From: a virus
Virus record (IMG/VR): IMGVR_UViG_3300033978_000173
Span: 1 to 24,801 of that record
Reading direction: 5' to 3' (one strand)
DNA length: 24,801 nt
Position 1 is the stretch's first letter. Each line of letters starts with the position of its first letter. Below, one piece after another: positions 2,819 through 24,801 of this stretch. The translations under genes were made by a program, and so were the position numbers. Below the pieces are notes generated by a model. That model was not told the DNA's origin. It searched no databases and saw nothing but the letters and a program-made list of their open reading frames with translations.

Positions 2819-5800
2819 TATGTTCTCCCTACCGCTATTTCAATTGACCCTATGTGATCCGAATCGTATGCTACCAGAGCTTTGCCAACTACTGTGCCTA
2901 CTTTTACGTCACTTGTGGCAGCTACTGCCACTCCTGGAATTCCTGATGTGATCAAAATATCTCCTTTTGATATTTTTCCTACTACCTTGCAGGGCACACG
3001 ACCTTGTAGTGCAACTAGATTCTTCAAGCCCGGGCAAGCATCATACATGACAAATGCTGCATTATTAGACACCACACCAGCTACTCTAGTGTCACCTTTG
3101 ATATTGCCCGTAGTAACTTCTTTGTCTCCACCAAATACAAGAACAGTTCCTACTTCATATTCTCGATCACCTTCGTAGTATTCTGCAAGGTCAGCAGCAT
3201 ATGTGGCCTGCATCCTTGATCCTGGGTTCAAGCTCCAATTGCCTATGATAGTACCAGCCACGACATTGCCACCAGTGGTTAATGTCTGTGCCTGTATGCC
3301 TGTGCAAGTGATAGTGCTGCTTGATGTAATTGCTCCCACTGCGGTGATAGGAGCATTAGAAACACCGTTCTGCGTTTTGAATTCATGACTGTCATTCCAA
3401 TAAGATGTTTTATCATCTGCAGCCAACGACCCTTCACTGATTAGTATACCGCCAGCACTGTTGTATCCGTAATAGCGTAGGTAACCGCCAGTGGCAGTTG
3501 TTGCTGAATCAACAGCCAACTGCGTGTCAATTTTGATATTAGACACATCAACGGTCCTGCCACCGAAATCACCGTTTACGTCTCTTACTATAATCTCACT
3601 GGCTCCGACACTACTGCTGCTTCCAGAAGATCCAGCTACTATACTATAAGAACCATCTGATGTTGCAGTAGCACCAGTTCTTCGTAAGAATCCCAAAGCA
3701 CTATACTGTGATTTCTTAATGGCCAAACCATCGTTGACCACATCAGCGAATGCCACTGCGGCAGCGTTGGCAGTGCTCACACTGCTGTTACCGATCAGTG
3801 TGTCTGGAGCCAGCTGTGCAAGATCTCCTAGCTGAATACTGTTGGCCTTGATAGTAACATGTCCGTCAGTGACGTCAAAATCCGCATTGCTGAAACTGCT
3901 TAATCCACTAGCTGCTTGAATAACGGCAGCAGATCCTGTAGGTGCTGCGGCCTGTGCAGTAGCAATGGTCATTGCCAACTTGCTCTGTTCAATAGCTGCG
4001 GCCGCATTCACTTCAGCGTTGTTGACCGCACCGGCACTCAACTGCACGTCTATATTGTTTAGTGTAGAGTCTATGCCAGTGCGTAGATCAAAAGTGAGAT
4101 CACCAGTGACACTGGCATTTACAAAGATGTCGCCAACACCAGTGAACACCATTACTTGACCTGCCTGCACATTAGATCCTGCATAGTTTTGTAAATTGGT
4201 AAAAGTCAGACTCTGCAGGTTTACTGCATCTTGAGGGTCAGTTGGATCGGCAACATTAGAAATCTTGTTGAAGTTGAGATTCATATTTGCCTGCATGCCC
4301 AGTTGGCCATCCAAACTCATGAAACCACCTGTGCCAAGAGGTATTACTTCGGCTGGCGCAACAGCGGCACCTTCATGTGAGATTCCCAGTCGGCGATCTA
4401 TGTATTTGCGTGTGGCATTCTCTGTGGGCACAGTATCTGTGGCGTTATCTGTGAATCCACTGTCTGTGGAAAACTCACTGACCGGCACACCACGTTTGAA
4501 TCCAATACCGTCCAAATTACTCAGTGCAATAGAACTTGAGAATGTGACCTGGCCAGTGCCCTGATCCACTCTAAAGTATGGTCCGACTGAGAAATTACCA
4601 AATTGATCTGTGGTAACATAAAACACACGACCCACATCACGTTCTTCTGTTTCTTTGGAGTCGTCTATCGGGTTAACACTACCTCCATAAATTTCTTTGG
4701 GATAGTTGGTGTCTGCATAAGAACCTGTGCCGATCTCGAGTAGATCGTGTCCAGTAACCCGAGTAAGAGCAATTCTAATAGTCAACGTGCCGAGGCTGCC
4801 GCTGGTACGCACAGCCACGGCAGCTTTAATGGTGTAACTTGTGGACAAATTGTTTATGGCATTGACTAACGGACGGTTCAGTGTGATTCTGCCAAACACG
4901 GTGCCAGTTACACCAGGACCTTGATACGAACTAATCACATATTCTTCGCCCAGGTAAACAAACTTAGCTGCAGATAATCTAGATATTTCAGTAGTTGAAA
5001 TAGCAATTACCGCAAAAGCATTGTCACCTGCGCGGCCGGTAACTAGACCTACTTTATGCACTCCACTCTGTGTACCAGAGGTTTCTATGGCCGGATCACC
5101 AGGCACATCTGTAATTTGGAATGTATCAGGATTTCCTGTGCTGACAACAAAATACCTATTTTGAATACTTATTCCTGTGGGCAAAGCACCAGTGGTAGTG
5201 AATTTGACCACATCTCCCGCAGAGAATCCATGGCCGACTAGTGTTACCACAGCTGGATTAGCGATTGATATAGTGCAGGTTGTACCAGTTGGTGTTGAAG
5301 ATATAAATTCTCCAGGCTGGAATACCGTGATATCTATATAGTTGTAGTTTTCTCTGGTCTGGGTGAGAGTCAACCCCACGATGTTATATCTATGAATGCC
5401 ACTACCTGCAGTTGTGATACTCACAGCAGCACCGTTTTTCTGTGTGCTTATACTGAATTGTGTTTCTGTGAGATTGTTAGGTAACACATAGTAAGTTTCT
5501 CCCACTAGCAATGGAGCAGGTAACGTGCCCGTGGTGGTGAAAGTTATGGTATAGGCTTCTAACAGTTTGTGAGTTTTCACGGCTTTGATACTCAGTCCAC
5601 TACCATTTGTCAATGTAAATGTGCCTCCTCCCGGAGTTGTGCTGACTGTAAACGTGTTATATGTGGGCTGTGTGATGATGTAATAGGTAATGCCGCTGAC
5701 AAAGTTGTTGGCAGTGCTGGTAGGGATTATTCTATCACCAATTCTCAGTTTGTGATTACCACTGGTAGTGCAGACGTTTGAAACTATATCGGTTATGGTC

Positions 5801-8800
5801 AATGCCACACGGAATATTGTAGGTGTAGCCGGATTAACTAATATCTCATAAGGACCATTGCTATCTGCGGTATTAGTGAATGACAATACACGATACACAT
5901 TTGAAAGTGTCTCACGCAGTTTAAGACCGGTAGAAGGTCTTACAGCAACATCTTCTAGACTGCCGGTGAGCAGTGTATTGCTGAGTTGACGCATGGTCAT
6001 TTTGGTGTTATTTGCTACTACCGCAAATAGACCTTCTGAGGCAGATCCTATGCCAGTGCTGAGATTTAATCTTGCTACTCCTACTGGAAGATCAGTGGTA
6101 GTCACACTAGTCACTGGGTATCTATATATTTCTGTGCCGTGTAGAACTTCTAATTCTGATCCACTTAATGGTGTATAGTCATAATTATACACAAATATAG
6201 ATAATCCACCTGCCACGTTGGCATATGCACCACTAGGAAAATAACAATCTACTCGTTGATTTAGATCTTCATAGACAGTGGTTGGGGTAGGAACTTCAAG
6301 TGGATCTGCACCTTCCGCAACCAAGGCATAATTACCATGAGCATTTGAACCGCCGACTGAACGAATCTGTCCACCAGTCAATGAGTAGTAGGCAATATGG
6401 CAGTAGTATGTGAACATGGACACTGCTTCAGTCAAGCCACCATTGGCCACAACTATGCCATATCCGAGGTCGTTGATCTGTGTGAAGTCATTACATAACA
6501 TGCTTCTGTTACCAGGCATCAACAATTCATATCGATTGCCATTGAAATCCACATAGCTCACAGCCGATGCCTGAAGCGCAGCTTTATTGGTCTGAATGAT
6601 GGTTCTAACAGCAATGTTATTAGCAGTGTAACCCACAAAGCTAGGTTCAGTTATGGCTACCACTGCCTGTGCAGCTGTGAAGTTGGCAGCACCGATGATT
6701 GAACTCATGCGGGTCATTAGGGTGTTTATGGTAGCAGCTTCTGTGGCCGAGGCAGGAGTTCCTGAGGTTCTAGTCACTGCAGAATAACTCACAGCTGGAG
6801 CCAAGTCCTGCACAATTTGTCCTAGCAGATAATTCAAATAGGCATGCCAGGTTGCAGATTGAGCTTGTGTTAGCGAAGAATCAGTGATCACTGCACCTGT
6901 GAGATTGTTGTAGAATTTCAACCCTCTTGTGCGTGTGGCCACATTGCCGCCATAAATCAAGTCATGGATCACTGCGTCTACAGCTTGTCTAATCTGATAT
7001 TCTACTTCACTGGCCACATATACCGTGGCAGTGGTAAATCCACTGAGATTGCCTGCTATCTGTGCATCGATATAAGCAATTAGTTCAGCGATTTCATAGT
7101 CTCTGTTTGCCAACAGCAGTGCATAGGCATTAGTGACGTTAGCAGACAGTCCAACCGGTAGTGTAAATGACAGAGCTGGTGCGGCAACAATGCCGCGTTC
7201 TATAGTGTCTGCTATGACAGTATTGCTCTGATCCACAGTTTCTTGAATGGTAGGGTAAGCAGTAATTAGATCGTTTACAGAATCATGCACGAACTCAATA
7301 GCTTCCAATGTGATTCGTCGTTGATCGGTCAATACCACTGCGCTTTGACTGAGTCTGTAGGTCAAGCCATTTTGTCTGGTCCAGTAGTTGGTGCCTAGCA
7401 CAATATCTCTTCCCAGGCCATCTAGGATCAATCCAGTGTCTCGACTGCAGGCAGCGGAATTGTACGTGAATACGCTGAATGGCCAAGGCGTGGTTTCATC
7501 TAATACAAATGTAGCTGTGCTGCCGTCCTTGTCATAGACAAAGTCTCGGACATAGTTTATTCTATATACAGAATCTGCTACAATGAATGATGCTGGAAGT
7601 TGCGGAAATCTATCAAGATCACTGACTTGCAATCTTGTTGGAGTGACCACGACGTCGATATTAAATTCCAGGTTGCCTGCAAATCCGTCTGTGAACATAC
7701 CGCCAGCAAACACCTGTCTGTCCTTGCTGCGGCTGAATGAAGCACACTCTTGAAAGTATGGAGACCTTGACAATATCTGACCTGTGGGATCCAATACTCC
7801 CATGAAACCGCCATGACCTATGGCTGATATAGCCTGCCAACGCACGGTATCGTTGGCTAGGAACACGTCCATCTCTTCGTTGTCTTTGGGATAATTCACT
7901 GATCCCGATCCATCAATTACATCCTTGAACGCTGTGATCAAGTCTGTGATAACCCCATCAGCACCCACCTCAGACTGGAACGCAGGATCAATAGTCTGTA
8001 AAAATAAATTCTGTTTAGGTGAGGTCACCGCAGTATTAGTGATAATATCTTGAACCAGCTCTTCAAAAAGATCTATCACCGCCAGATATTCACTGAGCTG
8101 TGTGGTAATTACTGTGTTACCAATTTCACTTTGATAATATTTCAGTGCTGCAGATATAGTTCGATTGTATTCTCCGTAGTCTAGATCAAAAGTAAGATCG
8201 TCAACTAAGATACCTATGCTGGTTTTGTAGAATGGTTTATCATAATTAAAAGTAGAAACAAAAGGTATAACATTATTGATTTTGCGGAATTCAATAGTAG
8301 CAACGATTTCTTCCTGTAGAAACTGTCTGTTCAATCTGATCAGGTCCGCAGCTGCTTCGTAGCCGCCTTTGTTTTGTATTTTGGGGTAGACAGGTTGAGT
8401 GCTGTTCTGTAGATAATGATAACCGTAGGCCTGTGTGACCACATCAAGGCCATCAATGACTGGGTCTCTACGGAATTTATTAAATGCCCAAGGACTAGCA
8501 GATGTGCCTGGACGAGGTCTAAAAATAACTCTACGGAATTCATCTCCTACTACAGAAACGTTTGCAGGAACTTTTAGTGGATAGTTTTCGAAATATTCTC
8601 CACTTTCTACTAGCACAGAAATCTGTATGTTTCTAGCAATGTCTCCATAGGTTATGCTTTCACCTATTTGAAAATTGCCAGATAATATATCCACATCAAA
8701 AATTTCATTGCCACCACTCTCTAGCTGTCCTGAATGCGCCACAATCTGGGCCAATGCGTTGCTGGTCTTACCTCGTAGGAATAGTCCTTCACGTATGTCT

Positions 8801-10347: not shown

Positions 10348-10635
10348 ATGTTTCTCACAATCAAAACTCAGCAAAATCAATACTCTAGACTCAGTAAACA
10401 CGGAGTCGAACATCAATATAAGAGAAAAAAGACCGTAGCAGTATTGAGATGTGACGCCTGTGATTCAATATTTGAAAGAGATCTCAAACATATAGATAAG
10501 AAACGCCTCAGCAACAATTTCTTTCATTGTTGCGGGTCTTGTGATGCCAAAAGATTTGCTCAACGCAAGGGGATTGAGCAGAAGCAGATATGGAACATGC
10601 CTGCTAGTTTAGACTTACCTGTGTCTAAATTCTAA
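10348..10635 (+). CDS. Small Cys-rich (zinc-ribbon-like) conserved phage protein
   Basis: The product is 95 residues and basic. It has two cysteine pairs, C35-x2-C38 and C62-x2-C65 (C61 is also Cys), spaced like a zinc ribbon or zinc finger, followed by a DAKRFAQRKG helix. It looks like a small protein conserved in marine T4-like phages whose function I do not know; nucleic-acid binding is only an inference from the Cys pairs and charge. A TAAATA motif ends 4 nt before this ATG and a TTATAAG lies further up (10323-10329), so the promoter and even the first codon are uncertain. There is no Shine-Dalgarno sequence. Its 3' end overlaps the iscA-like gene convergently by 11 bp. The divergent neighbour is the giant fibre gene. 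Confidence 0.75.
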   Translation: MFLTIKTQQNQYSRLSKHGVEHQYKRKKTVAVLRCDACDSIFERDLKHIDKKRLSNNFFHCCGSCDAKRFAQRKGIEQKQIWNMPASLDLPVSKF

Positions 10636-10951
10636 ATGATTCGCCGCAGCCGCAGCGATCTCGCTCATTGGGATTGATAAAATCAAAGCCTTCATTGAGT
10701 CCATTGCGGACCCAATCCATGGTCAACCCGTTTAAATAGGCTAGACTTTTGGCATCAACCAGCACAACAAACCCGTCGTGTGCAAAATTAGTTACTCCTA
10801 CTTCAGATTCGTAACTGTCCACGTATTCTAACACATAGGCTAGCCCACTGCACCCTGTGGTTCTAACACCTATGCGAATGCCTACACCTTTACCTCGGCG
10901 TTCTAAATTCTGTTTAATCTTTTTAGCCGCTGTGTCGGTTACGGTAATCAT
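10625..10951 (-). CDS. iscA: A-type Fe-S cluster carrier, IscA/HesB family
   Basis: A complete 108-residue A-type carrier that delivers nascent Fe-S clusters (or iron) to apoproteins in the cytoplasm. The three family cysteines are present: C34 in TTGCSGLAY, and C100 and C102 in the C-terminal CGCGESF. The GLNEGFDFINPN segment before them is also typical. Length is normal. The gene starts inside iscU (29 bp overlap), so it is translated from the same mRNA as iscU and the superoxide dismutase. IscA, SufA and ErpA cannot be separated by eye; the pairing with IscU favours an ISC-like role. It probably cooperates with the host cluster-assembly system, since no cysteine desulfurase is in the window. 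Confidence 0.92.
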   Translation of the reverse strand: MITVTDTAAKKIKQNLERRGKGVGIRIGVRTTGCSGLAYVLEYVDSYESEVGVTNFAHDGFVVLVDAKSLAYLNGLTMDWVRNGLNEGFDFINPNERDRCGCGESFRI

Positions 10952-11309
10952 CTACGGCCGCCTTGATAGCATCTTCTGCAAGGATACTACAATGTATCTT
11001 TACTGGTGGTAGAGCTAGTTCTTCTGCTATTTCTTTGTTTTTGATTGTTCCGGCTTGGTCGAGGGTTTTGCCTTTGAGCCACTCTGTGACAAGGCTCGAA
11101 CTCGCGATAGCCGATCCGCAGCCATACGTTTTAAATTTTGCATCTGTAATAATACCTGTATCATGATCTACCTTTATTTGTAGTTTCATTACGTCACCGC
11201 AAGCAGGAGCACCGACCATACCAGTGCCCACTGTGGGATCATCTTTGGCAAATGATCCTACATTACGTGGGTTTTCGTAATGATCAATTACTTTGTCCGA
11301 GTACGCCAT
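10923..11309 (-). CDS. iscU: Fe-S cluster assembly scaffold IscU
   Basis: A 128-residue, full-length IscU, the scaffold on which a [2Fe-2S] or [4Fe-4S] cluster is built from desulfurase sulfur. All ligands are seen: C37 and D39 in PACGDV, C64 in YGCGSAIASSS, H106 and C107 in KIHCSILAEDAI. The LPPVK motif (residues 100-104), which is the recognition site for the Hsp70-type chaperone HscA, is intact. This suggests the viral protein can plug into a host ISC machinery. The ATG overlaps the end of the superoxide dismutase gene by 26 bp and iscA overlaps its own end by 29 bp. No iscS, hscA or ferredoxin gene is present here, so function must depend on the host. Identification is very secure. Confidence 0.95.
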   Translation of the reverse strand: MAYSDKVIDHYENPRNVGSFAKDDPTVGTGMVGAPACGDVMKLQIKVDHDTGIITDAKFKTYGCGSAIASSSLVTEWLKGKTLDQAGTIKNKEIAEELALPPVKIHCSILAEDAIKAAVDDYRNRHSG

Positions 11310-11841
11310 TGATTATTCTCCAGTTTATTATCTTCCATATATTAGACAAATAGCTTTTTTTATCTGCCTGATAGTCCAATGCCCATGCATGTTCCCACCA
11401 ATCTACTAATAGCACAATGTCGTTCTTGATTTCGTGATTCACAATGGTTTTGATCTTGCCATCCCGAGCCAAGTATACCCATCCGCTGCCCTGTATCTTC
11501 ATGGCTGTTTTTTCAAATTCTTCTTTGAACCGGTCAAAAGTATCAAAGTGTTTTTCTATAAACTGTAAAATAGCATCATAGGGTCTATTAGATCCTTCTG
11601 GTTTTTGTAGTTGACCAAAATAGATACTGTGTAAAAATGCGCCAGCTTCGTTGAAATCGTCATCACCTTCGCCCTTGTTGTAGCGATCAACATAGGCTTT
11701 GTATAATGTTCCGTAGTGATAATCTATGGTTTCTTTGGATTTCACGGGATCGAGATCTTCGCGATCGTATGGCAGTGTCAACTGTATGAGTTTGTCTTTT
11801 TTGCCTTCAACAATGAACTTTTGAATGAAATTGTATGCCAT
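11284..11841 (-). CDS. Iron/manganese superoxide dismutase, shortened form
   Basis: The product is 185 residues. Family motifs are clear: TIDYHYG-x-x-YKAYV, GSGWVYLARDG and DWWEHAWALDYQ followed by NIWKIINW. The four expected metal ligands are H42, H71, D147 and H151 (E. coli FeSOD H27, H74, D157, H161). The stretch between the first two ligands is 18 residues shorter than in E. coli FeSOD, trimming the helical hairpin. The usual KHH after the first ligand is TLY here. A Gly occupies the FeSOD Gln position and a His the MnSOD Gln position, a combination reminiscent of cambialistic or archaeal enzymes. It would turn superoxide into peroxide and oxygen. I chose the ATG at 11841; a longer TTG start at 11871 would overlap the late motif. 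The gene is first in the operon with iscU and iscA. Confidence 0.85.
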   Translation of the reverse strand: MAYNFIQKFIVEGKKDKLIQLTLPYDREDLDPVKSKETIDYHYGTLYKAYVDRYNKGEGDDDFNEAGAFLHSIYFGQLQKPEGSNRPYDAILQFIEKHFDTFDRFKEEFEKTAMKIQGSGWVYLARDGKIKTIVNHEIKNDIVLLVDWWEHAWALDYQADKKSYLSNIWKIINWRIINGVLGQSN

Positions 11842-11846
11842 ACATG

Positions 11847-11852
11847 TATTTA
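11847..11852 (-). promoter_or_regulatory. Late-type TAAATA element abutting the SOD start codon
   Basis: The minus strand reads GGTAAATA, then 5 nt, then the SOD ATG. In T4 late promoters the TATAAATA element covers about -13 to -6, so the predicted first transcribed base is the A of the ATG. No Shine-Dalgarno sequence can fit. It lies back-to-back with the plus-strand late element at 11856-11863, with 5 bp between the two hexamers. Confidence 0.45.
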
Positions 11853-11883: not shown

Positions 11884-12123
11884 ATGCTAGGATTAATCAA
11901 GAAACTTTTTGGCAGTAAGCCAGCCGAACCTGTTGCAGTTCCCTACAAGGTAGAAACTCCACCAGTCGAAGTCGCACAACCTTCAGTCGAGCCAACAGCA
12001 GCAGAAGTTTCTGCTGAAAACAAAGCAGTGGCAGTGGCAAAAGCCAAACGAGCACCAGCGAAAAAAGCGCCTATTAAGAAAGTAGCAGCGCCGAAGACTC
12101 CGCGAAAGCCAAAGGCTCCGTAA
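11884..12123 (+). CDS. Small Lys/Ala/Pro-rich basic protein with histone-H1-like tail
   Basis: The product is 79 residues. Residues 1-12 (MLGLIKKLFGSK) form a short amphipathic basic helix. Residues 13-45 are Pro/Glu/Val-rich and acidic. Residues 46-79 consist almost only of Lys, Ala, Pro and Arg in AKKAP/APKTPRKPK repeats, like a histone H1 C-terminal tail. I use the ATG at 11884 because it follows an AAGGAG ribosome site and a late promoter; the open frame extends further upstream, to 11716, but that part overlaps SOD and has no support. Binding of DNA in the capsid, or membrane attachment through the N-terminal helix, is possible; neither is shown. The 3' end overlaps the UV endonuclease gene convergently by 50 bp. 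Confidence 0.75.
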   Translation: MLGLIKKLFGSKPAEPVAVPYKVETPPVEVAQPSVEPTAAEVSAENKAVAVAKAKRAPAKKAPIKKVAAPKTPRKPKAP

Positions 12124-13144
12124 CTTTTTTATCCTGCTCGTAAAGGGCAAATGAGGCTAAATTCTTGGCCTTGCTTTCACACATGATGTCTGCCCACGGC
12201 CTATGTGTCAACGCCCACTCATTGACCGCGGTATTCCAATAAAAGCCACTGTGTGCTCTTAGTTTGGCTTTTTTGTAACCTGCTTCTAGGAGGGACGGAA
12301 GATCGGGGCGGATGTGTCTGGGATGGTCAATAAGACAGTCTTCCCGTGAAACACTATAATGTATGACAGGGCGCACACCACGCCAGCTATCGATAACCCT
12401 TTTAACACGATCATCATTTGCTTCAATGTATTCTCCAGTTTTAATCCAGTGATGATGAATGTCTAGCACCAAGGCACAGTCTTTGACCAATTCAATGCTA
12501 GATTCAATACCCCAGGTCATTTCGTCATTTTCAATGGTAAGGCAGTTGCGAGCCTCGGGTGTCATTTTGCTAAGAGCGTCACGAATACCTTGTGGTCCCA
12601 GCTTGCCGGAGATATGCACATTGATCTTGAAGTCTTGGAATGTTTGACCATATCCCATCCATCGAGCCATGTCCACATGATACTCGAACTCTTCTATACT
12701 GCGTTCTACTATGCCCGGGTTAATAGACGCCAACACGCAAAACTGGCCAGGATGAAAGCTGAGCCTAACATTATTCTTCCTAGCCACATCACCCACACGG
12801 GCAAATCCTCTTTCTGCAAAGGCTCTAACATCGGGCTGCCGCCAAAACCACTTCCAACTAGGCTCAGTGTATACAGGAAGTATATCACTTGAGAGTCGTA
12901 CCATTCTAAGATCTTCATCTAATGTTCCTACCCTGCTGACTAATTTATAGCAGGCTTCTATGTTTCGTTCCATTAACTCCCAAAGACGCTGTTCTGCTTC
13001 TTGAGGATGTTCACGCAACCACCTAACTGTGGTAGAGCCTGTATTTAAGTCACGATCAACAGCATTGATTTTCATGCCGTTGACTTCGGAAGGATCGTTG
13101 ATCCATTTGCAGGCAAAGCCTAGACGTCTGAGTGTAGTGTTCAT
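12074..13144 (-). CDS. uvsE: UV-damage endonuclease, UvsE/UvdE family
   Basis: A complete 356-residue TIM-barrel endonuclease that nicks DNA 5' to cyclobutane dimers, 6-4 photoproducts and abasic sites, starting alternative excision repair. Barrel-strand motifs with metal ligands are visible: RLSFHPGQF (H131), NVHISGK (H177), TIENDE (E205), LVLDIHHHW (D228, H230, H231), VIHYS (H262) and MCESKAK (E323). The N-terminus LRRLGFACKW is the usual first strand, so the ATG at 13144 is almost forced. It is the only gene in this stretch with a strong sigma70-type promoter (13151-13179), implying early expression by host polymerase, sensible for repairing viral DNA soon after entry. There is no Shine-Dalgarno sequence. 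About 17 C-terminal residues overlap the plus-strand neighbour. Confidence 0.93.
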   Translation of the reverse strand: MNTTLRRLGFACKWINDPSEVNGMKINAVDRDLNTGSTTVRWLREHPQEAEQRLWELMERNIEACYKLVSRVGTLDEDLRMVRLSSDILPVYTEPSWKWFWRQPDVRAFAERGFARVGDVARKNNVRLSFHPGQFCVLASINPGIVERSIEEFEYHVDMARWMGYGQTFQDFKINVHISGKLGPQGIRDALSKMTPEARNCLTIENDEMTWGIESSIELVKDCALVLDIHHHWIKTGEYIEANDDRVKRVIDSWRGVRPVIHYSVSREDCLIDHPRHIRPDLPSLLEAGYKKAKLRAHSGFYWNTAVNEWALTHRPWADIMCESKAKNLASFALYEQDKKVTEPLAFAESSALLLS

Positions 13145-13179: not shown

Positions 13180-13969
13180 CTACAAATTTGTCCTGAACAT
13201 CCTGTGGATTTGGTTCTCCGTGAAACACAGCTATACTACAATCTGGAGGAGGTCGCACATCGTGTTTCACTGTTTTGAATCGCCGTCCGCCATGTGCAAC
13301 AGTGAGTTCATCTCTGCTGCGTATTTCCCATTTGTAACTCATAATCCATTCTTTGGGCCAAAATATCATTCTATCTTTGGCTATCTTCCAAATCCAATCT
13401 TGATCTCCTTGCAGCCGTTGTGCCTCCGACGGTTTCGATTTGAATTGATCGTATATATGACCTTGTGTGCCGTGTGTCCATGCCAACACCGAACTGTTGA
13501 GATAATTCCAACTGGGGAAAAATTTTCTATTGAAATCATGGATACCTATAAAACTGGTAGGATGATATCCAGTGAGCTTATTCATGTTGGCATGTATGAC
13601 TACATCTAGATCCAGATATAATATTCTTCCCCTGAGAGGTAATGCAGAATCAAACATGTGAACCTTGTGCCACCAACCTCTAGCATAATTGGCGTTGGGT
13701 TGATATATTTTACGAACTCCGGCAATATCATGTTGATCGTCGGTGAGACAGGCAAACTCATAAGGCACTGTGAGATGTCTAGACACCATATTACGTAGAC
13801 GCTCTACATATTCACGACCATATTTGTTACCGAATCTCACACACAGCACAGTGATAGGTTCGTTGAGATCCGAAGGCACTACAAGATCGGGATATTCTCC
13901 ACGTGCTGCCATTTTGGCAGCTCGCTTTTCAGCCTTGGCTTGTATGCGTTGTTCTTTTGACAATTCCAT
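13163..13969 (-). CDS. Glycosyltransferase, GT8-like (DxD type)
   Basis: The product is 268 residues. After a basic leader of about 35 residues comes a GT-A-like nucleotide-sugar transferase core: ITVLCVRFGNKYG (39-51), RILYLDLDVVI with the metal-binding DLD at 120-122, NSSVLAW (158-164), GDQDWI (188-193) and a terminal FHGEPNP (249-255). This arrangement is that of small phage glycosyltransferases related to family GT8. The acceptor is unknown; surface polysaccharide, virion glycans or modified DNA bases are all possible. It overlaps the end of kdsA by 41 bp and is probably translated from the same mRNA, so a joint role with Kdo metabolism is plausible. The start is the first ATG after kdsA overlap; a Met at residue 20 is an alternative. 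Confidence 0.8.
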   Translation of the reverse strand: MELSKEQRIQAKAEKRAAKMAARGEYPDLVVPSDLNEPITVLCVRFGNKYGREYVERLRNMVSRHLTVPYEFACLTDDQHDIAGVRKIYQPNANYARGWWHKVHMFDSALPLRGRILYLDLDVVIHANMNKLTGYHPTSFIGIHDFNRKFFPSWNYLNSSVLAWTHGTQGHIYDQFKSKPSEAQRLQGDQDWIWKIAKDRMIFWPKEWIMSYKWEIRSRDELTVAHGGRRFKTVKHDVRPPPDCSIAVFHGEPNPQDVQDKFVVDNWQ

Positions 13970-14774
13970 CTATGGCTACCAAGTCTTTTAAAATATCACC
14001 CAGGTCGTCTAGTTTGATCATATTTGGACCATCGCTAGGAGCACTATCAGGATCTTCGTGACATTCCATAAAGACAGCTGCCACTGAACCTGTGGCTATA
14101 GCAGCTCTCGCCAGGTATGGGACCATGGTCCTATCTCCGCCAGATCTTTCTCCCATTCCTCCAGGCTGTTGAACAGAATGTGTGGCATCAAAGACCACTG
14201 GATAGCCAGTGCTTGCCATAATAGGTAGGCTGCGCATATCAACCACAAGATTATTGTATCCATGAGTGTATCCTCTTTCGCATAACATAATGCGTTCGTT
14301 TCCAGTTGAAGCAATCTTTGATGCGACGTTTTTCATATCGTGGGGAGCAAGAAATTGTCCCTTCTTGACATTTATAGCACAGCCTGTAGCACCCGCGGCC
14401 AACAATAAGTCAGTTTGTCTACATAAAAATGCTGGAATCTGTAGTATGTCAATGCCAGCATCTGCACATTCCTTTGCCTGCCAGCTTTCATGAATGTCTG
14501 TCAAAACAGGCACTCCGAACGTATGTTTAATCGCATTAAGAACATCAAGTCCTTCTTTGATTCCTACACCACGTTTGGTAGAAATACTAGAACGATTGGC
14601 TTTGTCAAAACTGCTTTTGTATATCAAAGGAATACCTAATAATGCTGTGATAGCAATTAATCTTGCACAAGTATCTTCTGCATGATCTTGACTTTCAATT
14701 TGGCAAGGTCCAGCAATTAATACGAACGGAAGATTGTTACTAACAGAGAGAGAATTAATATTAAATGTATGCAT
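13929..14774 (-). CDS. kdsA: 3-deoxy-D-manno-octulosonate 8-phosphate synthase (KdsA)
   Basis: A complete 281-residue enzyme that condenses phosphoenolpyruvate with arabinose 5-phosphate to Kdo-8-phosphate, a committed step to the LPS inner-core sugar Kdo. Signature segments are all present: LIAGPCQIES, KSSFDKANRSS, VPVLTDIHE, LQIPAFLCRQTDLL, NVKKGQFLAP and DATHSVQQPGG. Four residues match the ligands of metal-dependent KdsA: C24, H199, E237 and D248, spaced almost exactly like Aquifex C11, H185, E222, D233; E. coli-type enzymes have Asn at the Cys. I chose the ATG at 14774; a TTG at 14789 would place the late motif inside the gene. It is followed by a glycosyltransferase with a 41 bp overlap. 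It could be moonlighting in another 3-deoxy sugar pathway, but the motifs favour Kdo. Confidence 0.92.
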   Translation of the reverse strand: MHTFNINSLSVSNNLPFVLIAGPCQIESQDHAEDTCARLIAITALLGIPLIYKSSFDKANRSSISTKRGVGIKEGLDVLNAIKHTFGVPVLTDIHESWQAKECADAGIDILQIPAFLCRQTDLLLAAGATGCAINVKKGQFLAPHDMKNVASKIASTGNERIMLCERGYTHGYNNLVVDMRSLPIMASTGYPVVFDATHSVQQPGGMGERSGGDRTMVPYLARAAIATGSVAAVFMECHEDPDSAPSDGPNMIKLDDLGDILKDLVAIDGIVKRTTHTSQG

Positions 14775-14779
14775 ATAAT

Positions 14780-14785
14780 TATTTA
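14780..14785 (-). promoter_or_regulatory. Late-type TAAATA element abutting the kdsA start codon
   Basis: Minus strand GGTAAATA followed by 5 nt (ATTAT) and the kdsA ATG, the same geometry as at SOD. The TAA of the element is the stop codon of the small membrane protein upstream. No Shine-Dalgarno sequence is present. Confidence 0.45.
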
Positions 14786-14974
14786 CCAATGCCTAATGGT
14801 GTTGGCAACAATAAAGCAACAGGTTATAACGTGAATGACTACCCAAAAAGTTTTTAAGAATAAAACAATTCGAGCTTCACGTAGAGTGAGGATAGGCACA
14901 TCTGGCCTATCCTCATCAGTTTGTCCCATTCTGTGCCCGGTTGCCCGAGCCCATATTTTTTCAAAACTATTCAT
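14783..14974 (-). CDS. Small single-pass membrane protein of unknown function
   Basis: The product is 63 residues. Residues 1-32 are polar (EKIWARATGHRMG, DEDRPDVP) and residues 36-58 form one hydrophobic segment (VLFLKTFWVVIHVITCCFIV) fit to span the inner membrane. Its start overlaps the stop of the queD-like gene as ATGA, so translation is coupled. It resembles small membrane proteins common in marine T4-like phages; I do not know the function. The coding sequence contains an 11-bp perfect hairpin at 14887-14915. Confidence 0.75.
   Translation of the reverse strand: MNSFEKIWARATGHRMGQTDEDRPDVPILTLREARIVLFLKTFWVVIHVITCCFIVANTIRHW
14887..14915. repeat. Perfect 11-bp inverted repeat inside a coding region
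   Basis: Arms 14887-14897 (TGAGGATAGGC) and 14905-14915 (GCCTATCCTCA) pair perfectly around a 7-nt loop. No T-run follows on either strand, so it is not a standard intrinsic terminator. It lies in the polar N-terminal half of the small membrane protein gene, downstream of queD on the same mRNA. Confidence 0.8.
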
Positions 14975-15498
14975 CCTTCGTATATTGCAGAATTACCTGC
15001 GTGTTCGAATACTTCGGCAGATTTTAGTTTAACGCCTACGCCAACAGGATAACGTGCTTCAAAAACACGACCATCAGGATGTGTCCAGCCACGGCCTTCT
15101 TGATAAGCAGTTAGAATTTCGTTCATAGTCTTGTAAACTAGTTCGGCAAACATTTCACAGCCTACACCATCTACAATACGTAGATCGATGATGCCCATGT
15201 TTTTAAAACCACCTTGGATTTTGTTTAATTCTACAAATGTGCCACGTTCTGGATCGTCTTTGCCAATAACTAGTGTATGATCAAATTGCCATTCACTCCA
15301 TTCTTTGAATGCTTTGAGTCCACCAAAGTCCATGACCCAGTTGCGATCATCTAAGGTTTCTGATTCAAAGATTAGTTTAATGCCAATGGAGTAACCATGT
15401 AGCATAGAACAATGTGAGTGCGTTGAACGCCATTGTCTAAAACAGCATGACAGCCCTCTGTCGTTGCCGTAAGTTTTTGTTGAAAGATATTTTGCCAT
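14971..15498 (-). CDS. queD: 6-carboxytetrahydropterin synthase-like protein (QueD/PTPS family, viral type)
   Basis: The product is 175 residues of the tunnelling-fold QueD/PTPS family, which converts dihydroneopterin triphosphate to a tetrahydropterin on the path to 7-deazaguanines (preQ0, queuosine) or related pterins. Residues 15-37 hold FRQWRSTHSHCSMLHGYS: C30 matches the catalytic Cys and H34 the first His of the classical LHGH zinc site, but the second is Tyr (Y36), and the classical N-terminal zinc His is not at its usual place. H27 and H29 may replace them. DFGGLK (57-62), FDHTLV and the final EVFEHAGNSAIY are also family-like. This variant is the usual one in marine phages as far as I recall. 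The ATG follows an AAGGAGA ribosome site by 9 nt. The exact product is uncertain; no folE, queC or queE is evident here. Confidence 0.8.
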   Translation of the reverse strand: MAKYLSTKTYGNDRGLSCCFRQWRSTHSHCSMLHGYSIGIKLIFESETLDDRNWVMDFGGLKAFKEWSEWQFDHTLVIGKDDPERGTFVELNKIQGGFKNMGIIDLRIVDGVGCEMFAELVYKTMNEILTAYQEGRGWTHPDGRVFEARYPVGVGVKLKSAEVFEHAGNSAIYEG

Positions 15499-15614: not shown

Positions 15615-16203
15615 ATGCAATGAATTTCACATTATTTTTCTGCCATTCCGGTGGCATCTGCCAGTCTGGTCTATTATAGATCACAAATGTTGTATCGGGA
15701 TAATACATGAATACTGCGGCAATTTGATAGACCCAATAGCTGGGATCTACTGCCTGTGATCCCACTCTAGCATAGTTCACGGTGCCTTTGTAGATATTAT
15801 TCACACTGTGATCGATCGGATACAGATCAAATCCGATCATTACAACTTCTTCGTGTCCTAACATCGCTGACAATAGCACAGCATAACCGCCACTGCCCCA
15901 ATGTTCAGCTTGATCCTTTTTCGATTCACCTCGGGTAGGCACCTCAGGTAGAAGATTGATGTTTTTGTTTTTTCTTATTTTTCTGAAGTAGTGATGCCAA
16001 TGGTCCCGCACATAGATTTCTGTGTCTTTGGTATTGGGATTATTTACAGCTTCGTCAGCCATTCTGCGATCGCAACAGACCAAATGATTGACATTTAGAT
16101 CTCGATGTATGGCATTACATCCTATAAGAACATGATCGGTGTATGCGCTGATATCAACGCGGCGTCTACTTTCGCCATTGCCAATTACCAATGCTCGAGG
16201 CAT
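15610..16203 (-). CDS. Maf/DUF115-like or MptE-like phage protein
   Basis: The product is 197 residues. It opens with a Rossmann-like strand-turn RALVIGNGESRR (3-14), then HVLIGCNAIHRDL, HLVCCDRRMADEA (about 41-53), GSGGYAVLLSAMLG and VVMIGFDLYPID. The GNG-[PE]-S turn with a following C/GxN and a late GFD is the layout of the DUF115 / MAF-flagellin glycosylation and 6-hydroxymethylpterin pyrophosphokinase MptE-like group. In phages such proteins sit near fibre genes and are often of unknown role; transfer of an acidic sugar to a virion protein is a possibility only. The ATG overlaps the stop of the preceding fibre-like gene by one base (TAATG). Confidence 0.6.
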   Translation of the reverse strand: MPRALVIGNGESRRRVDISAYTDHVLIGCNAIHRDLNVNHLVCCDRRMADEAVNNPNTKDTEIYVRDHWHHYFRKIRKNKNINLLPEVPTRGESKKDQAEHWGSGGYAVLLSAMLGHEEVVMIGFDLYPIDHSVNNIYKGTVNYARVGSQAVDPSYWVYQIAAVFMYYPDTTFVIYNRPDWQMPPEWQKNNVKFIAL

Positions 16204-17045
16204 TATTCGATTCTACCGAATCCGTTCCATATTCCAGGGTTGCCTGGCTGAACACATACCCAACCAATTGACTTTCCTGCTTGAGGTGAACTGTTCCATA
16301 CGATATCGCCTTCGTTAAACGAACCGCTACTAGGAGGTTCATTCCCACTAAGATGCAACTTGTCGTTGAATTTTAATGCACCATTTACGTGTAATGTACT
16401 ACGAGGATCAGGATTGTTGACATTGATGCCCAGGGAACCTATGATTGTGACCTTGGTATCGCCCACCGTCGGATTGCCTATGATAACATTACCGCCAGCT
16501 TTGATTTGGATCCTAGCTGTGTTATCGGTTCCTAGTTCTAGGTCAGTGTAATTATAAGTGCCAATTCTTGCAGTGTTGGTACCTTCTGCACCTATTACTA
16601 TATCCACATTTTGATCTATGATATTAACAGCAGCTTTGGGTTGATCTGTTCCAAGCCCTAATCGATCAGATATACTGTCATAAACTAGATATTGATTTAC
16701 ACTTAATCCGCCATCTACTATCAATCCCTTGAGACGACCAACTTCTCTTAAACTGCTTTTGGTTACGGTAGGACCTAATTCTTTCTCATCAATTAATTTG
16801 ATGTTGTTGGTGCTTAGATATTTTCCTTTGGCAAGATCTATATTTTCAGATATAAAAAATCTATCTGGATCGGAATTAAAAATGAACTGTTTATTATGTC
16901 CCTGTCCATTCCACAGTATGCCTTTGCCATTGATATCGCCTTTGATGATGATGTAAGGGAATTCAGCAGAGTCAATTTCTTGACCTTCTTGAAATACTTC
17001 TTGCAATAGGGTAGTTAGGGCATTTAATTTTTCTTGGCTTGCCAT
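16203..17045 (-). CDS. Fibre-like structural protein, paralogue B (280 aa)
   Basis: I start it at the ATG at 17045 (MASQEKLNALTTLL), one base after the stop of paralogue A and preceded by GGAAA. The frame is open further upstream to 17120, but that part overlaps paralogue A. The body matches paralogue A over nearly its entire length: KGILWNGQGHNKQFIFNS, DPDRFF, IDEKELGPTVTKS, LREVGRLKGLIVDGGLS, LELGTDNTARI and a C-terminal EGDIVWN with a Trp/Cys-containing end (GWVCVQPG). It lacks the first 110 residues of A, carrying only a short N-terminal helix. RLGLGTDQP and LHVNGALKF are short repeat units known from phage fibre and tail-spike proteins with an intramolecular chaperone-like end. Virion structure is the inferred role. 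Confidence 0.8.
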   Translation of the reverse strand: MASQEKLNALTTLLQEVFQEGQEIDSAEFPYIIIKGDINGKGILWNGQGHNKQFIFNSDPDRFFISENIDLAKGKYLSTNNIKLIDEKELGPTVTKSSLREVGRLKGLIVDGGLSVNQYLVYDSISDRLGLGTDQPKAAVNIIDQNVDIVIGAEGTNTARIGTYNYTDLELGTDNTARIQIKAGGNVIIGNPTVGDTKVTIIGSLGINVNNPDPRSTLHVNGALKFNDKLHLSGNEPPSSGSFNEGDIVWNSSPQAGKSIGWVCVQPGNPGIWNGFGRIE

Positions 17046-17046
17046 G

Positions 17047-18141
17047 TTATGAATTTCCAATTTTACCGAAAGGCGACCATATCCCAGGAGATCCGGTTTG
17101 AATGCACACCCAACCCACATAAGAGTTCATTCTCGGTTGGATGTTCCATATAATGTCACCTTCGTTATACGATCCATTTGTTGGATAAGTGCTGTCGTAT
17201 TTTTGCAGTCTATTGTTGAATCTCACTGCGCCATTTACATGCAGATCAACTTCTGGATCCGGAGTCGAAACCCTTACTGAAAGTTTACCATGTACATGTA
17301 TTTGGGTAGGAGCCAGTTTGGGATTACCTAATATAATATTGCCACTCGACGAGATGATTATTCTTGCAGTGTTGTCAGTGCCTAATTCTAAATTATTACT
17401 GGCGTAAGTGCCAATGAATGCTTTTACGGTGTCTTTGGTGCCGAGAACTATCTCTACTCCGTCATCTAGGATGCTGACAGCTGCGTTAGGATTTTCAGTG
17501 CCTAGTCCTAGTCTGCTAGTGTTGGCATCGAATACCATAAACTGACCCACCGATAATCCGCCATCTACTATCAGTCCATTAAGCCGACCAACTTCTCTGA
17601 GATTGCTTTTGGTTATAGTAGGACCTAATTCTTTCTCATCAATTACTTTGATGTTGTTGACAGTGATGCTTTTGCCTTTGGCAAGATCGATGGATTCAGA
17701 TGAAAAGAATCTATCCGGACTGGAGTTAAATATAAACTGTTTGGTATATCCTTGGCCACTCCAAAGCAGTCCTTTGCCGTCGATGGTATCACCTGAAAAC
17801 ACAATAGGCACATCTTTCTCAAATTTGATATCTGCACGTATCTCATCCACCTCTAGAATCTTGGTTTTTAGGGTGCCTGCGACTGTGAGATTATCGATGT
17901 TTTCTACGAACAGATTAGTGACAGTGACACCATCATTGTTCACTGTTAATTGAGTTTTTACAGCGGTATCTGTGATACCGGTGCTGGCAAAGTTATGTAT
18001 TTTGCCTCCGGAAATATGATCCCCCGATAGAGATCGAAATGGCATTTTTCTTGCGATTTCTTTGACATCTGGGGCAGCGGTTTGTGCGATCGAGTTGATC
18101 TCATCGCCTAGTGCGGCTAATAAATTATTGACATTACTCAT
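17047..18141 (-). CDS. Fibre-like structural protein, paralogue A (364 aa)
   Basis: The start is the ATG at 18141 (MSNVNNLLAALGDEINSIAQ); a TTG at 18165 is less likely. Residues 1-110 hold an N-terminal helix, a FRSLSGDHISGGKIHNFAST segment typical of marine myovirus tail or virion proteins, and beta-rich LTVAGTL repeats. Residues from about 112 onward are shared with paralogue B (GKGLLWSGQG, DEKELGPTITKS, LGLGTENP, LHVNGAVRF, GYVGWVC-like end). The ATG is 7 nt after an ATAAATA late motif and has no Shine-Dalgarno sequence. It heads a three-gene unit with paralogue B and the Maf-like protein. The structural role is inferred from composition and neighbours. Confidence 0.82.
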   Translation of the reverse strand: MSNVNNLLAALGDEINSIAQTAAPDVKEIARKMPFRSLSGDHISGGKIHNFASTGITDTAVKTQLTVNNDGVTVTNLFVENIDNLTVAGTLKTKILEVDEIRADIKFEKDVPIVFSGDTIDGKGLLWSGQGYTKQFIFNSSPDRFFSSESIDLAKGKSITVNNIKVIDEKELGPTITKSNLREVGRLNGLIVDGGLSVGQFMVFDANTSRLGLGTENPNAAVSILDDGVEIVLGTKDTVKAFIGTYASNNLELGTDNTARIIISSSGNIILGNPKLAPTQIHVHGKLSVRVSTPDPEVDLHVNGAVRFNNRLQKYDSTYPTNGSYNEGDIIWNIQPRMNSYVGWVCIQTGSPGIWSPFGKIGNS

Positions 18142-18148
18142 AGTAATG

Positions 18149-18155
18149 TATTTAT
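18149..18155 (-). promoter_or_regulatory. Late-type ATAAATA element close to the paralogue A start codon
   Basis: Minus strand GGATAAATA, 7 nt, then ATG. The predicted start site is about 2 nt before the ATG. It lies just downstream of the terminator of the previous unit (18164-18190), so the two units are insulated. Confidence 0.55.
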
Positions 18156-18163
18156 CCGCCAAC

Positions 18164-18190
18164 AAAAAAGCGGACCAAAGCCCGCTTTTT
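18164..18190 (-). terminator. Intrinsic terminator after the 391-residue gene
   Basis: A 9-bp stem, AAAAAGCGG (18165-18173) with CCGCTTTTT (18182-18190), around an 8-nt loop. Read on the minus strand the hairpin ends in a run of T (18164-18169), 18 bp after the stop of the 391-residue gene. The plus strand also has a T-run, so it could act both ways. Confidence 0.75.
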
Positions 18191-24158: not shown

Positions 24159-24801
24159 ATGACACAAGACTTCACAAAGATACCATTCCATAACATAACA
24201 AGATTTGGTCAACGCACCATGTTGCATCGCCCGTTATTTTCTACCAGTTGGATTTTGGGCCGTTTCTGTAATTATAACTGTTCTTACTGTTGGCCCTATG
24301 CTAGATCGGACAAGGTAGATCACCAGCCTTTAGAAGTATATACTAATACTGTAGATGAAATCAAACGACAGGCTCGACTAAATGGCTTCAATGAATTCCA
24401 TTGGAGTTTCAGTGGCGGTGAACCTACTGCTTACCGACAGCTACATGATTTGATTAAACACCTTGACGAAACAGAAAGCACATACCAAAGTATACACATG
24501 ACAACCAATTTAAGTCCTGGAAGTAAATGGTGGAATACCTGGTGTGCCAACACAGCATTACTACAACGCAGAAGTATCACAGCATCATTTCATGATGAGT
24601 TTGCTCGAGAGCAGGAATTCGGTGACAAGTGTCTACAGTTATTGCATGAGCGTGTGCATGTCACAGTCAATCAAGTAATGGTCCCGGAAAAGTTTTATGA
24701 GCTTTATGAACGCATGTCTCGGCTACATGCTCGTGGAATCAATGTTACGCTCAAACCGCAAAGTGATCCTACAGCGAGTCGTGTAGTCGATGGCTACACA
24801 A
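24159..24801 (+). CDS. Radical SAM protein, 3' end cut by window edge
   Basis: The visible 214 residues start at the ATG at 24159. C37, C41 and C44 in GRFCNYNCSYCWPY form the CxxxCxxC site for a SAM-binding [4Fe-4S] cluster, with the usual aromatic residue after the second Cys. SFSGGEPT (about 85-92) is the GGEP SAM-contacting motif and HMTTNLS, ITASFHDEF and LKPQSD are further barrel strands. It would generate a 5'-deoxyadenosyl radical; the substrate is unknown. Relation to QueE is possible in view of the queD-like gene but the arrangement is that of the general PqqE/NifB-like class. As a [4Fe-4S] enzyme it is a plausible client of the viral IscU/IscA. The C-terminus, and any auxiliary cluster domain, is outside the window. 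Confidence 0.88.
   Translation, partial: MTQDFTKIPFHNITRFGQRTMLHRPLFSTSWILGRFCNYNCSYCWPYARSDKVDHQPLEVYTNTVDEIKRQARLNGFNEFHWSFSGGEPTAYRQLHDLIKHLDETESTYQSIHMTTNLSPGSKWWNTWCANTALLQRRSITASFHDEFAREQEFGDKCLQLLHERVHVTVNQVMVPEKFYELYERMSRLHARGINVTLKPQSDPTASRVVDGYT

Follow-up and report, generated by a model that had tools for sequence, protein, structure and literature searches.

Genomic organisation of the locus

The window, as we call the whole stretch of viral DNA analysed here (24,801 nucleotides; IMG/VR record IMGVR_UViG_3300033978_000173), carries three minus-strand genes for a compact Fe/Mn-type superoxide dismutase (SOD), an IscU scaffold and an A-type Fe-S carrier, each overlapping the next. 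The features of this cassette and its surroundings are the following:

13929–14789 and 14971–15498: KDO-8-phosphate synthase and QueD-like gene, close to the cassette (NCBIfam)
12074..13144, minus strand: UvdE-type endonuclease gene, upstream of the cassette and used as a site marker (PF03851, 2e-35)
11284..11841, minus strand: compact Fe/Mn-type SOD, 185 aa, ATG at 11841 and stop at 11284 (Pfam Sod_Fe_N and Sod_Fe_C)
11284..11309, minus strand: SOD/IscU overlap, 26 bp (read off the sequence)
10923..11309, minus strand: IscU scaffold, 128 aa (TIGR01999, above cut-off)
10923..10951, minus strand: IscU/carrier overlap, 29 bp (read off the sequence)
10625..10951, minus strand: A-type Fe-S carrier (IscA-like), 108 aa (PF01521; TIGR00049, above cut-off)
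10348..10635, plus strand: convergent 95-aa gene, conserved, of no family, used as a site marker

A first-pass annotation of this DNA had described the three cassette genes as overlapping by 26 and 29 bp, and both the overlaps and the ORF coordinates it gave were confirmed. The UvdE-type gene is found upstream of SOD in many IMG/VR loci. The convergent 95-aa gene, which had no Pfam, NCBIfam or PHROG match at an E-value of 0.001, is kept at the equivalent position in many related loci. Many of the IMG sample numbers of the loci probably belong to lakes.

The whole window is 100% identical to positions 206018–230818 of a 281,658-b contig (G001, hereafter the parent contig), which has a G+C content of 40%, open ends and at least 28 tRNA genes (the search covered all but the last 1,658 b). 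We assign this contig to a T4-like phage on the basis of its gp23-type major capsid gene (5.8e-99). Near the cassette, the KDO-8-phosphate synthase gene scores above its NCBIfam cut-off and the QueD-like gene below it; the former is compatible with a Gram-negative host. Two adjacent related fibre-like genes at 16203–18165 of the window share 81% identity over 227 bp and are likely the result of a duplication.

A compact SOD of possible viral lineage

We identify the first gene of the cassette as a compact Fe/Mn SOD, with a predicted dismutase function, from its matches to Sod_Fe_C (2.2e-23) and Sod_Fe_N (1.4e-9). In comparison with E. coli SodA and SodB, the N-terminal helical hairpin of the protein is incomplete and a C-terminal-domain loop is absent. 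The metal ligands (H42, H71, D147 and H151 in its own numbering) are invariant in all 101 aligned viral SODs, as are Tyr34, the Glu beside the last His ligand, and a His at the place of the water-binding Gln of MnSOD. Tyr34 and this Glu have functional roles in Fe/Mn SODs. The motif corresponding to HXXXHH reads HXXXLY, both second-sphere His residues being gone. An AF2 model (pLDDT 85.9, pTM 0.83) agrees with this assignment, in that the best 50 PDB matches listed are all SODs or SOD-like subunits, with TM scores of 0.73–0.84 by query.

Among named relatives, the closest come from two jumbo phages, PA5oct and Vibrio phage 2.275, whose SODs share ~40% identity with the window protein and have the same compact form. 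Pseudomonadota SODs reach at most 42% identity among the matches listed (398 genomes, 309 with a match), and the best of those listed (42%) spans 181 codons against 154 residues of the phage protein. In 20 genomes picked from the IscU matches, SOD identity was 27–37% over the longer alignments and rose to at most 49% in short ones of 35–42 residues. No bacterial donor of the phage SOD was thus found among the matches listed, with identities of ≤42% over long alignments. Taken together, the compact SOD suggests a viral lineage. The SOD tree was built by a quick method without bacterial SODs, and PA5oct and Vibrio phage 2.275 sit on long branches in it, so that a single viral SOD clade is unproven by this tree.

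The SodFM subfamilies 3 and 4 (Sendra et al. 2023, PMC10172142), as described in the available text, share with the phage SOD the four metal ligands and a C-terminal His at the water-coordinating place; of 13 cases of C-terminal-His enzymes given there, 9 preferred Fe. The same source takes absence of the final His of HXXXHH as the mark of SodFM4, and this residue is also absent from the phage SOD. The phage protein differs in reading HXXXLY, with both of the last two His residues gone, and in its shortened hairpin. The words "phage", "virus" and "viral" are absent from the text of that paper.

IscU and the A-type carrier

The window IscU matches NifU_N (2.5e-54) and scores 221.5 bits against TIGR01999 (cut-off 192.4). 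Its cluster ligands and LPPVK motif had been considered intact from the first reading of the sequence, and PACGD, YGCG and LPPVKIHC are indeed all present, as are all three motifs in 174 of the 177 viral IscUs of ≥120 aa. The protein is 79% identical to E. coli IscU and 81–87% identical to its best 80 cellular matches, which by title belong mostly to Burkholderiales or betaproteobacteria and include Neiella, Rheinheimera, one Gammaproteobacteria MAG and one Proteobacteria MAG. We take this as a lead to a possible betaproteobacterial host, and as a lead only.

The third protein matches Fe-S_biosyn (PF01521, 5.6e-17) and is 55% identical to E. coli IscA. It scores 138.5 bits against the IscA equivalog TIGR02011, under the cut-off of 150.6, and is therefore filed here as an A-type carrier, a subfamily whose model (TIGR00049) it passes with 102.2 bits (cut-off 58.8). 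Both carrier cysteine motifs are present in 193 of 196 proteins of ≥95 aa. The parent contig encodes a second carrier at 173239–173562; it shares 67% identity with the alternative carrier of locus L122 and 75% with that of L301.

All three proteins of the cassette are under purifying selection, which together with the recurrence of the arrangement speaks against a chance grouping. Median pairwise dN/dS across 24 representatives was 0.058 for SOD, 0.102 for IscU and 0.093 for the carrier, with gene ends trimmed to avoid the overlaps and only pairs with a dS of 0.05–2 kept (137, 196 and 109 of 276 pairs, respectively).

Expression signals

Two short motifs around the SOD gene bear on how the cassette may be expressed:

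11847..11852, minus strand: TAAATA, late-promoter-like, at −11 of the SOD ATG (read off the sequence)
11318..11321, minus strand: GGAG, likely Shine-Dalgarno sequence of iscU, inside the SOD gene (read off the sequence)

A Shine-Dalgarno-like motif precedes IscU in 49 of 52 loci, SOD in 11 of 85 and the carrier in 17 of 61. The 26- and 29-bp overlaps, together with the internal Shine-Dalgarno sequence, fit a putative translationally coupled operon, although iscU has this ribosome-binding signal of its own.

In 67 of 85 loci TAAATA, which resembles the T4 late promoter, occurs somewhere in the 80 nt preceding SOD, compared to ~2% of random 80-nt stretches. Throughout the parent contig the hexamer lies near the starts of 52 of 259 ORFs (6.9 expected), and in 11 of these 52 it is positioned at −10 to −12. 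These positions provide a lead towards late SOD transcription, perhaps leaderless or with a very short leader; SOD, iscU and iscA may be co-expressed, probably late.

The SOD and Fe-S gene linkage is recurrent

IMG/VR was scanned using IscU, SOD and a SOD alignment as queries. Each scan returned the best 80 loci at most, with distant relatives under-sampled. We grouped loci into clusters by their SOD or IscU gene (95% nucleotide identity) and scored one representative of each. The SOD-scan loci alone formed 76 distinct SOD clusters, one of them cut by a contig end and 75 scorable. In 67 of the 75, an Fe-S assembly gene lies ≤2.6 kb downstream of SOD, the partner being IscU in 44 clusters (37 at the uvdE site of the window and 7 at the nrd site described below), another A-type carrier in 20 and SufC (of SufC-SufD) in 3. 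A wider set of 171 loci in 87 SOD clusters, which also takes in the IscU- and SufD-scan loci, has IscU after SOD in 52 clusters, overlapping in 41 and non-overlapping in 11. The overlap is exactly 26 bp in 38 of these 52. A group of SOD and Fe-S genes is thus a recurrent module. By the first-pass annotation, the joint-function reading would fall if the linkage were confined to this genome; it passes that check, since the order recurs in many IMG/VR contigs.

The genes also occur apart. SOD has no Fe-S neighbour in 8 of the 75 scored clusters, and SufC-SufD is found without SOD at 8 of 13 SufD loci. IscU has no SOD just upstream in 46 of the 98 scorable IscU clusters (178 loci in 99 clusters, 1 unscorable), a set in which IscU and SOD scans are mixed, so that the share with SOD is no population estimate. 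Loci L020 and L035 carry IscU-IscA at the window's uvdE site with no SOD, and phage C48C1 has IscU among replication genes with no SOD annotated nearby. PA5oct and Vibrio phage 2.275 have no isc or suf gene annotated within ~6 kb either side of SOD, and their records are absent from the IscU and carrier matches in the phage collection; when the PA5oct SOD was used as bait in viral contigs, it recovered a single locus that showed no isc gene. No single record of the phage collection showed SOD, IscU and carrier together. Among records of the name Acinetobacter phage MD-2021a, iscU and iscA are adjacent and the SOD matches fall on other records.

Two genomic sites and exchange of Fe-S partners

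Most SOD clusters belong to the site seen in the window, between UvdE and a giant tail gene. The second site is within ribonucleotide reductase operons, where SOD-IscU-IscA separates nrdA from nrdB; these contigs read nrdA, SOD-IscU-IscA, then nrdB and glutaredoxin where the contig is long enough. The eight nrd-site loci are 64–90% (SOD), 73–93% (IscU) and 61–89% (carrier) identical to the window. Six of them (L033, L141, L142, L154, L301 and L303) again have a 26-bp SOD/IscU overlap; L332 has one of 14 bp and L304 none. On the SOD tree, the nrd label needs 5 changes, at least 3 of which are forced by branches with an SH-aLRT support of ≥95; the three forced changes may represent one gain and two losses. 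The IscU tree, with 2 starred of 113 inner branches and a support of only 68 for setting bacterial IscUs apart from viral ones, is too poorly resolved to separate movement of the unit from its re-formation beside a resident IscU-IscA pair.

The slot after SOD at the uvdE site is occupied by IscU-IscA, by a p95 gene on the opposite strand followed by another A-type carrier, or by SufC-SufD. An opposite-strand gene separates SOD from the carrier in the 20 carrier-type clusters, and these loci are therefore not one operon. By NCBIfam, SufC is above cut-off in L020 and below it in L318, and the short SufD is below cut-off; a gene of the GenBank phage MaAM05 is annotated as sufD. In the SOD-less L020, a row of SufC, SufD, a SufS-family desulfurase (PF00266, 3.7e-78; below NCBIfam cut-off), IscU and A-type carrier genes occupies 5350–8685 at the uvdE site. 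A P-loop kinase-like gene with weak APS_kinase/KTI12 matches splits IscU from the carrier in L081 and L143, and the same family is also present in L054.

Proximity to ribonucleotide reductase extends beyond the full triple, since 39 of the 98 scorable IscU clusters lie ≤7.5 kb from nrdA or nrdB, 30 of them without SOD and 9 with it. Fe-S assembly genes were seen in the phage nrdA-nrdB-glutaredoxin neighbourhoods of L154, L141, L303, L332 and others. For the NrdB of L332 the nearest model is NF006576 (class Ia), whose cut-off it does not reach. By eye, phage NrdB looks unusual in the region of its dinuclear-iron ligands.

Candidate clients and undetected partners

Near its end, the window enters a gene for a radical-SAM protein, a class of enzyme suggested from the outset as a client of the module:

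24159..24800, plus strand: radical-SAM protein, truncated at the edge of the window (the parent contig gives 326 aa; PHROG radical SAM)

Its PF04055 domain lies at 230269–230526 of the parent contig, and the protein has CX3CX2C. Possible clients are indeed many. The parent contig has 19 radical-SAM (PF04055) places, 18 of them above the Pfam cut-off and 18 in ORFs with CX3CX2C; 13 fall at 230–262 kb, the gene at window position 24159 being the first of these. The genes form two groups, at 144–152 kb and 230–262 kb. Out of 10 radical-SAM proteins scanned, three pass a twitch-domain radical-SAM model and one is nearest to B12-dependent C-methyltransferases, below cut-off. It is plausible that the radical-SAM proteins of the parent contig are clients of the module. 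The 281,658-b parent contig, which has open ends and may be incomplete, revealed no ribonucleotide reductase large chain, and radical-SAM proteins are therefore the better client candidates there.

Elsewhere, radical-SAM matches number zero in both PA5oct and Vibrio phage 2.275, twelve in a 64-kb SOD-carrier contig and six (three above cut-off) in a 355-kb SOD-SufC-SufD contig. Two contigs of 327 and 328 kb, with SufC-SufD and no SOD at that site, have one weak sub-cut-off match each. No match was found in seven module contigs, G007, G009 and G011 (window type, 51–58 kb) and G434, G442, G446 and G447 (34–102 kb), probably because these are fragments. Radical-SAM richness therefore does not follow the module strictly, and the trend for it to rise with the module rests on few large contigs.

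When the E. coli isc proteins were searched against the parent contig by tblastn, IscU and IscA alone matched; IscS, HscA, HscB, Fdx, IscX and IscR did not. Aminotransferase-V proteins (IscS/SufS) were found in 0 of 15 contigs of 42–282 kb, the parent contig included; of 15 records covered by another search, one, that of L020, has a desulfurase. As IscS, HscA/B and ferredoxin were not found in the parent contig, partners from the host would be needed.

A possible role in protection and supply of Fe-S cofactors

Superoxide destroys exposed [4Fe-4S] clusters. We suggest that SOD, IscU and the A-type carrier constitute a phage module which would protect and supply Fe-S, and possibly other iron, cofactors during infection, and we place the probability of this reading at roughly 0.6. 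The compact SOD would lower superoxide, IscU would rebuild clusters via the host cysteine desulfurase, HscA/HscB and ferredoxin, and the A-type carrier would hand them on. The likely clients would be phage radical-SAM enzymes here and class I ribonucleotide reductase in the nrd-operon relatives. Enzymatic activity, host partners, co-expression, clients and benefit to the phage are all inferred.

The first-pass annotation had gone from linkage to one joint function. The recurrence of the linkage, its second site and the exchange of Fe-S partners at the uvdE site support a shared function. Evidence against a strict single unit is that SOD, IscU-IscA and SufC-SufD each occur apart. Further points against the protection-and-supply reading are the related SODs of PA5oct and Vibrio phage 2.275, which have no adjacent isc gene annotated, the desulfurase encoded by L020, and the loss from the phage SOD of both second-sphere His residues and part of the hairpin. 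A joint function is the best-supported reading, one that we infer from gene content and arrangement.

Part of the same evidence could be accounted for if the uvdE-tail region and the nrd operon simply collect auxiliary genes, SOD and isc genes being separately useful there. The neighbourhood does hold other metabolic cargo (UvdE, KDO-8-phosphate synthase, QueD-like and glycosyltransferase genes), and the independent gain and loss of SOD, IscU-IscA and SufC-SufD, as well as the insertion of an unrelated P-loop kinase-like gene between IscU and carrier in L081 and L143, would agree with such hitchhiking. However, IscU, A-type carrier and SufC-SufD genes, which make up most of what directly follows SOD, all serve a single process, and at a second site the triple turns up again, in most cases with its 26-bp overlap unchanged; we consider this explanation rather unlikely. 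Less likely still is that the module serves mainly class I ribonucleotide reductase, with IscU/IscA giving iron or electrons to the diiron-tyrosyl radical site of NrdB, SOD protecting that site, and the uvdE site being secondary. Against it, the uvdE site holds the majority of SOD clusters, and the parent contig, as far as its open ends allow, showed no large chain. In favour of a reductase role are the 39 of 98 IscU clusters near nrdA/nrdB, the placement of SOD directly between nrdA and nrdB in L330, the glutaredoxin gene after nrdB, and the nearness of the L332 NrdB to a class Ia model, if below its cut-off.

Phage IscU might also act on the host, by titrating IscS or altering IscR signalling and so diverting sulfur and iron. 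The presence of IscU in a contig in which IscS was not detected, and its 81–87% identity to the best 80 cellular matches, would suit such a takeover, but the cluster ligands and HscA motif are under purifying selection and a carrier is linked, neither of which a decoy needs, making this very improbable. An assembly artefact or bacterial contamination scarcely deserves credence. While the triple is known only from metagenome contigs, with no phage-collection record holding all three genes, its order is the same in many contigs, among phage genes, and the SOD is ≤42% identical to Pseudomonadota SODs among the matches listed, over long alignments.

Returning to protection and supply of Fe-S cofactors, a broader version can be tentatively proposed, which we regard as possible rather than probable. 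Large T4-like phages may possess a dedicated, movable Fe-S defence-and-repair system, composed of a viral compact SOD lineage paired with IscU-IscA, with another A-type carrier or with SufC-SufD as the assembly module, that would keep a large phage-encoded radical-SAM repertoire and the phage's ribonucleotide reductase active in cells under oxidative stress. The combination of SOD with interchangeable Fe-S genes at two sites points to superoxide damage of clusters as a possible limit on phage growth, an idea testable with three small genes. The compact viral Fe/Mn SODs and the viral SufC, SufD and SufS-type genes are also material for enzymology.

Comparison with known systems

The window shares with the E. 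coli isc operon (iscRSUA-hscBA-fdx) the order iscU then iscA; it differs from it in having SOD in front, and the parent contig yielded no iscS, hsc, fdx or iscR. IscU and/or an A-type carrier also occur in marine T4-like viruses (Nishimura et al. 2017, PMC5332604), and 12 radical-SAM genes were reported in one such genome. In the available text of that study "superoxide" occurs 0 times, and neither the SOD linkage nor SufC-SufD nor a cassette in the nrd operon is described. Freshwater phages (Kavagutti et al. 2019, PMC6802176) have superoxide dismutases among their oxidative-stress genes, again as here, with some oxidative-stress gene in >10% of phages; the available text contains neither "Fe-S" nor "iron-sulfur" nor "iscU", and does not describe the linkage. 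More widely, viral IscU, A-type carriers, sufE, nifU and SODs have been reported as separate genes in the literature accessible to us, and no report of SOD/Fe-S linkage, or of viral SufC-SufD beside SOD, was found in that literature, which included few subscription papers. Single SOD and Fe-S genes are thus already known from phages, and it is their linkage that, within that literature, is the new part.
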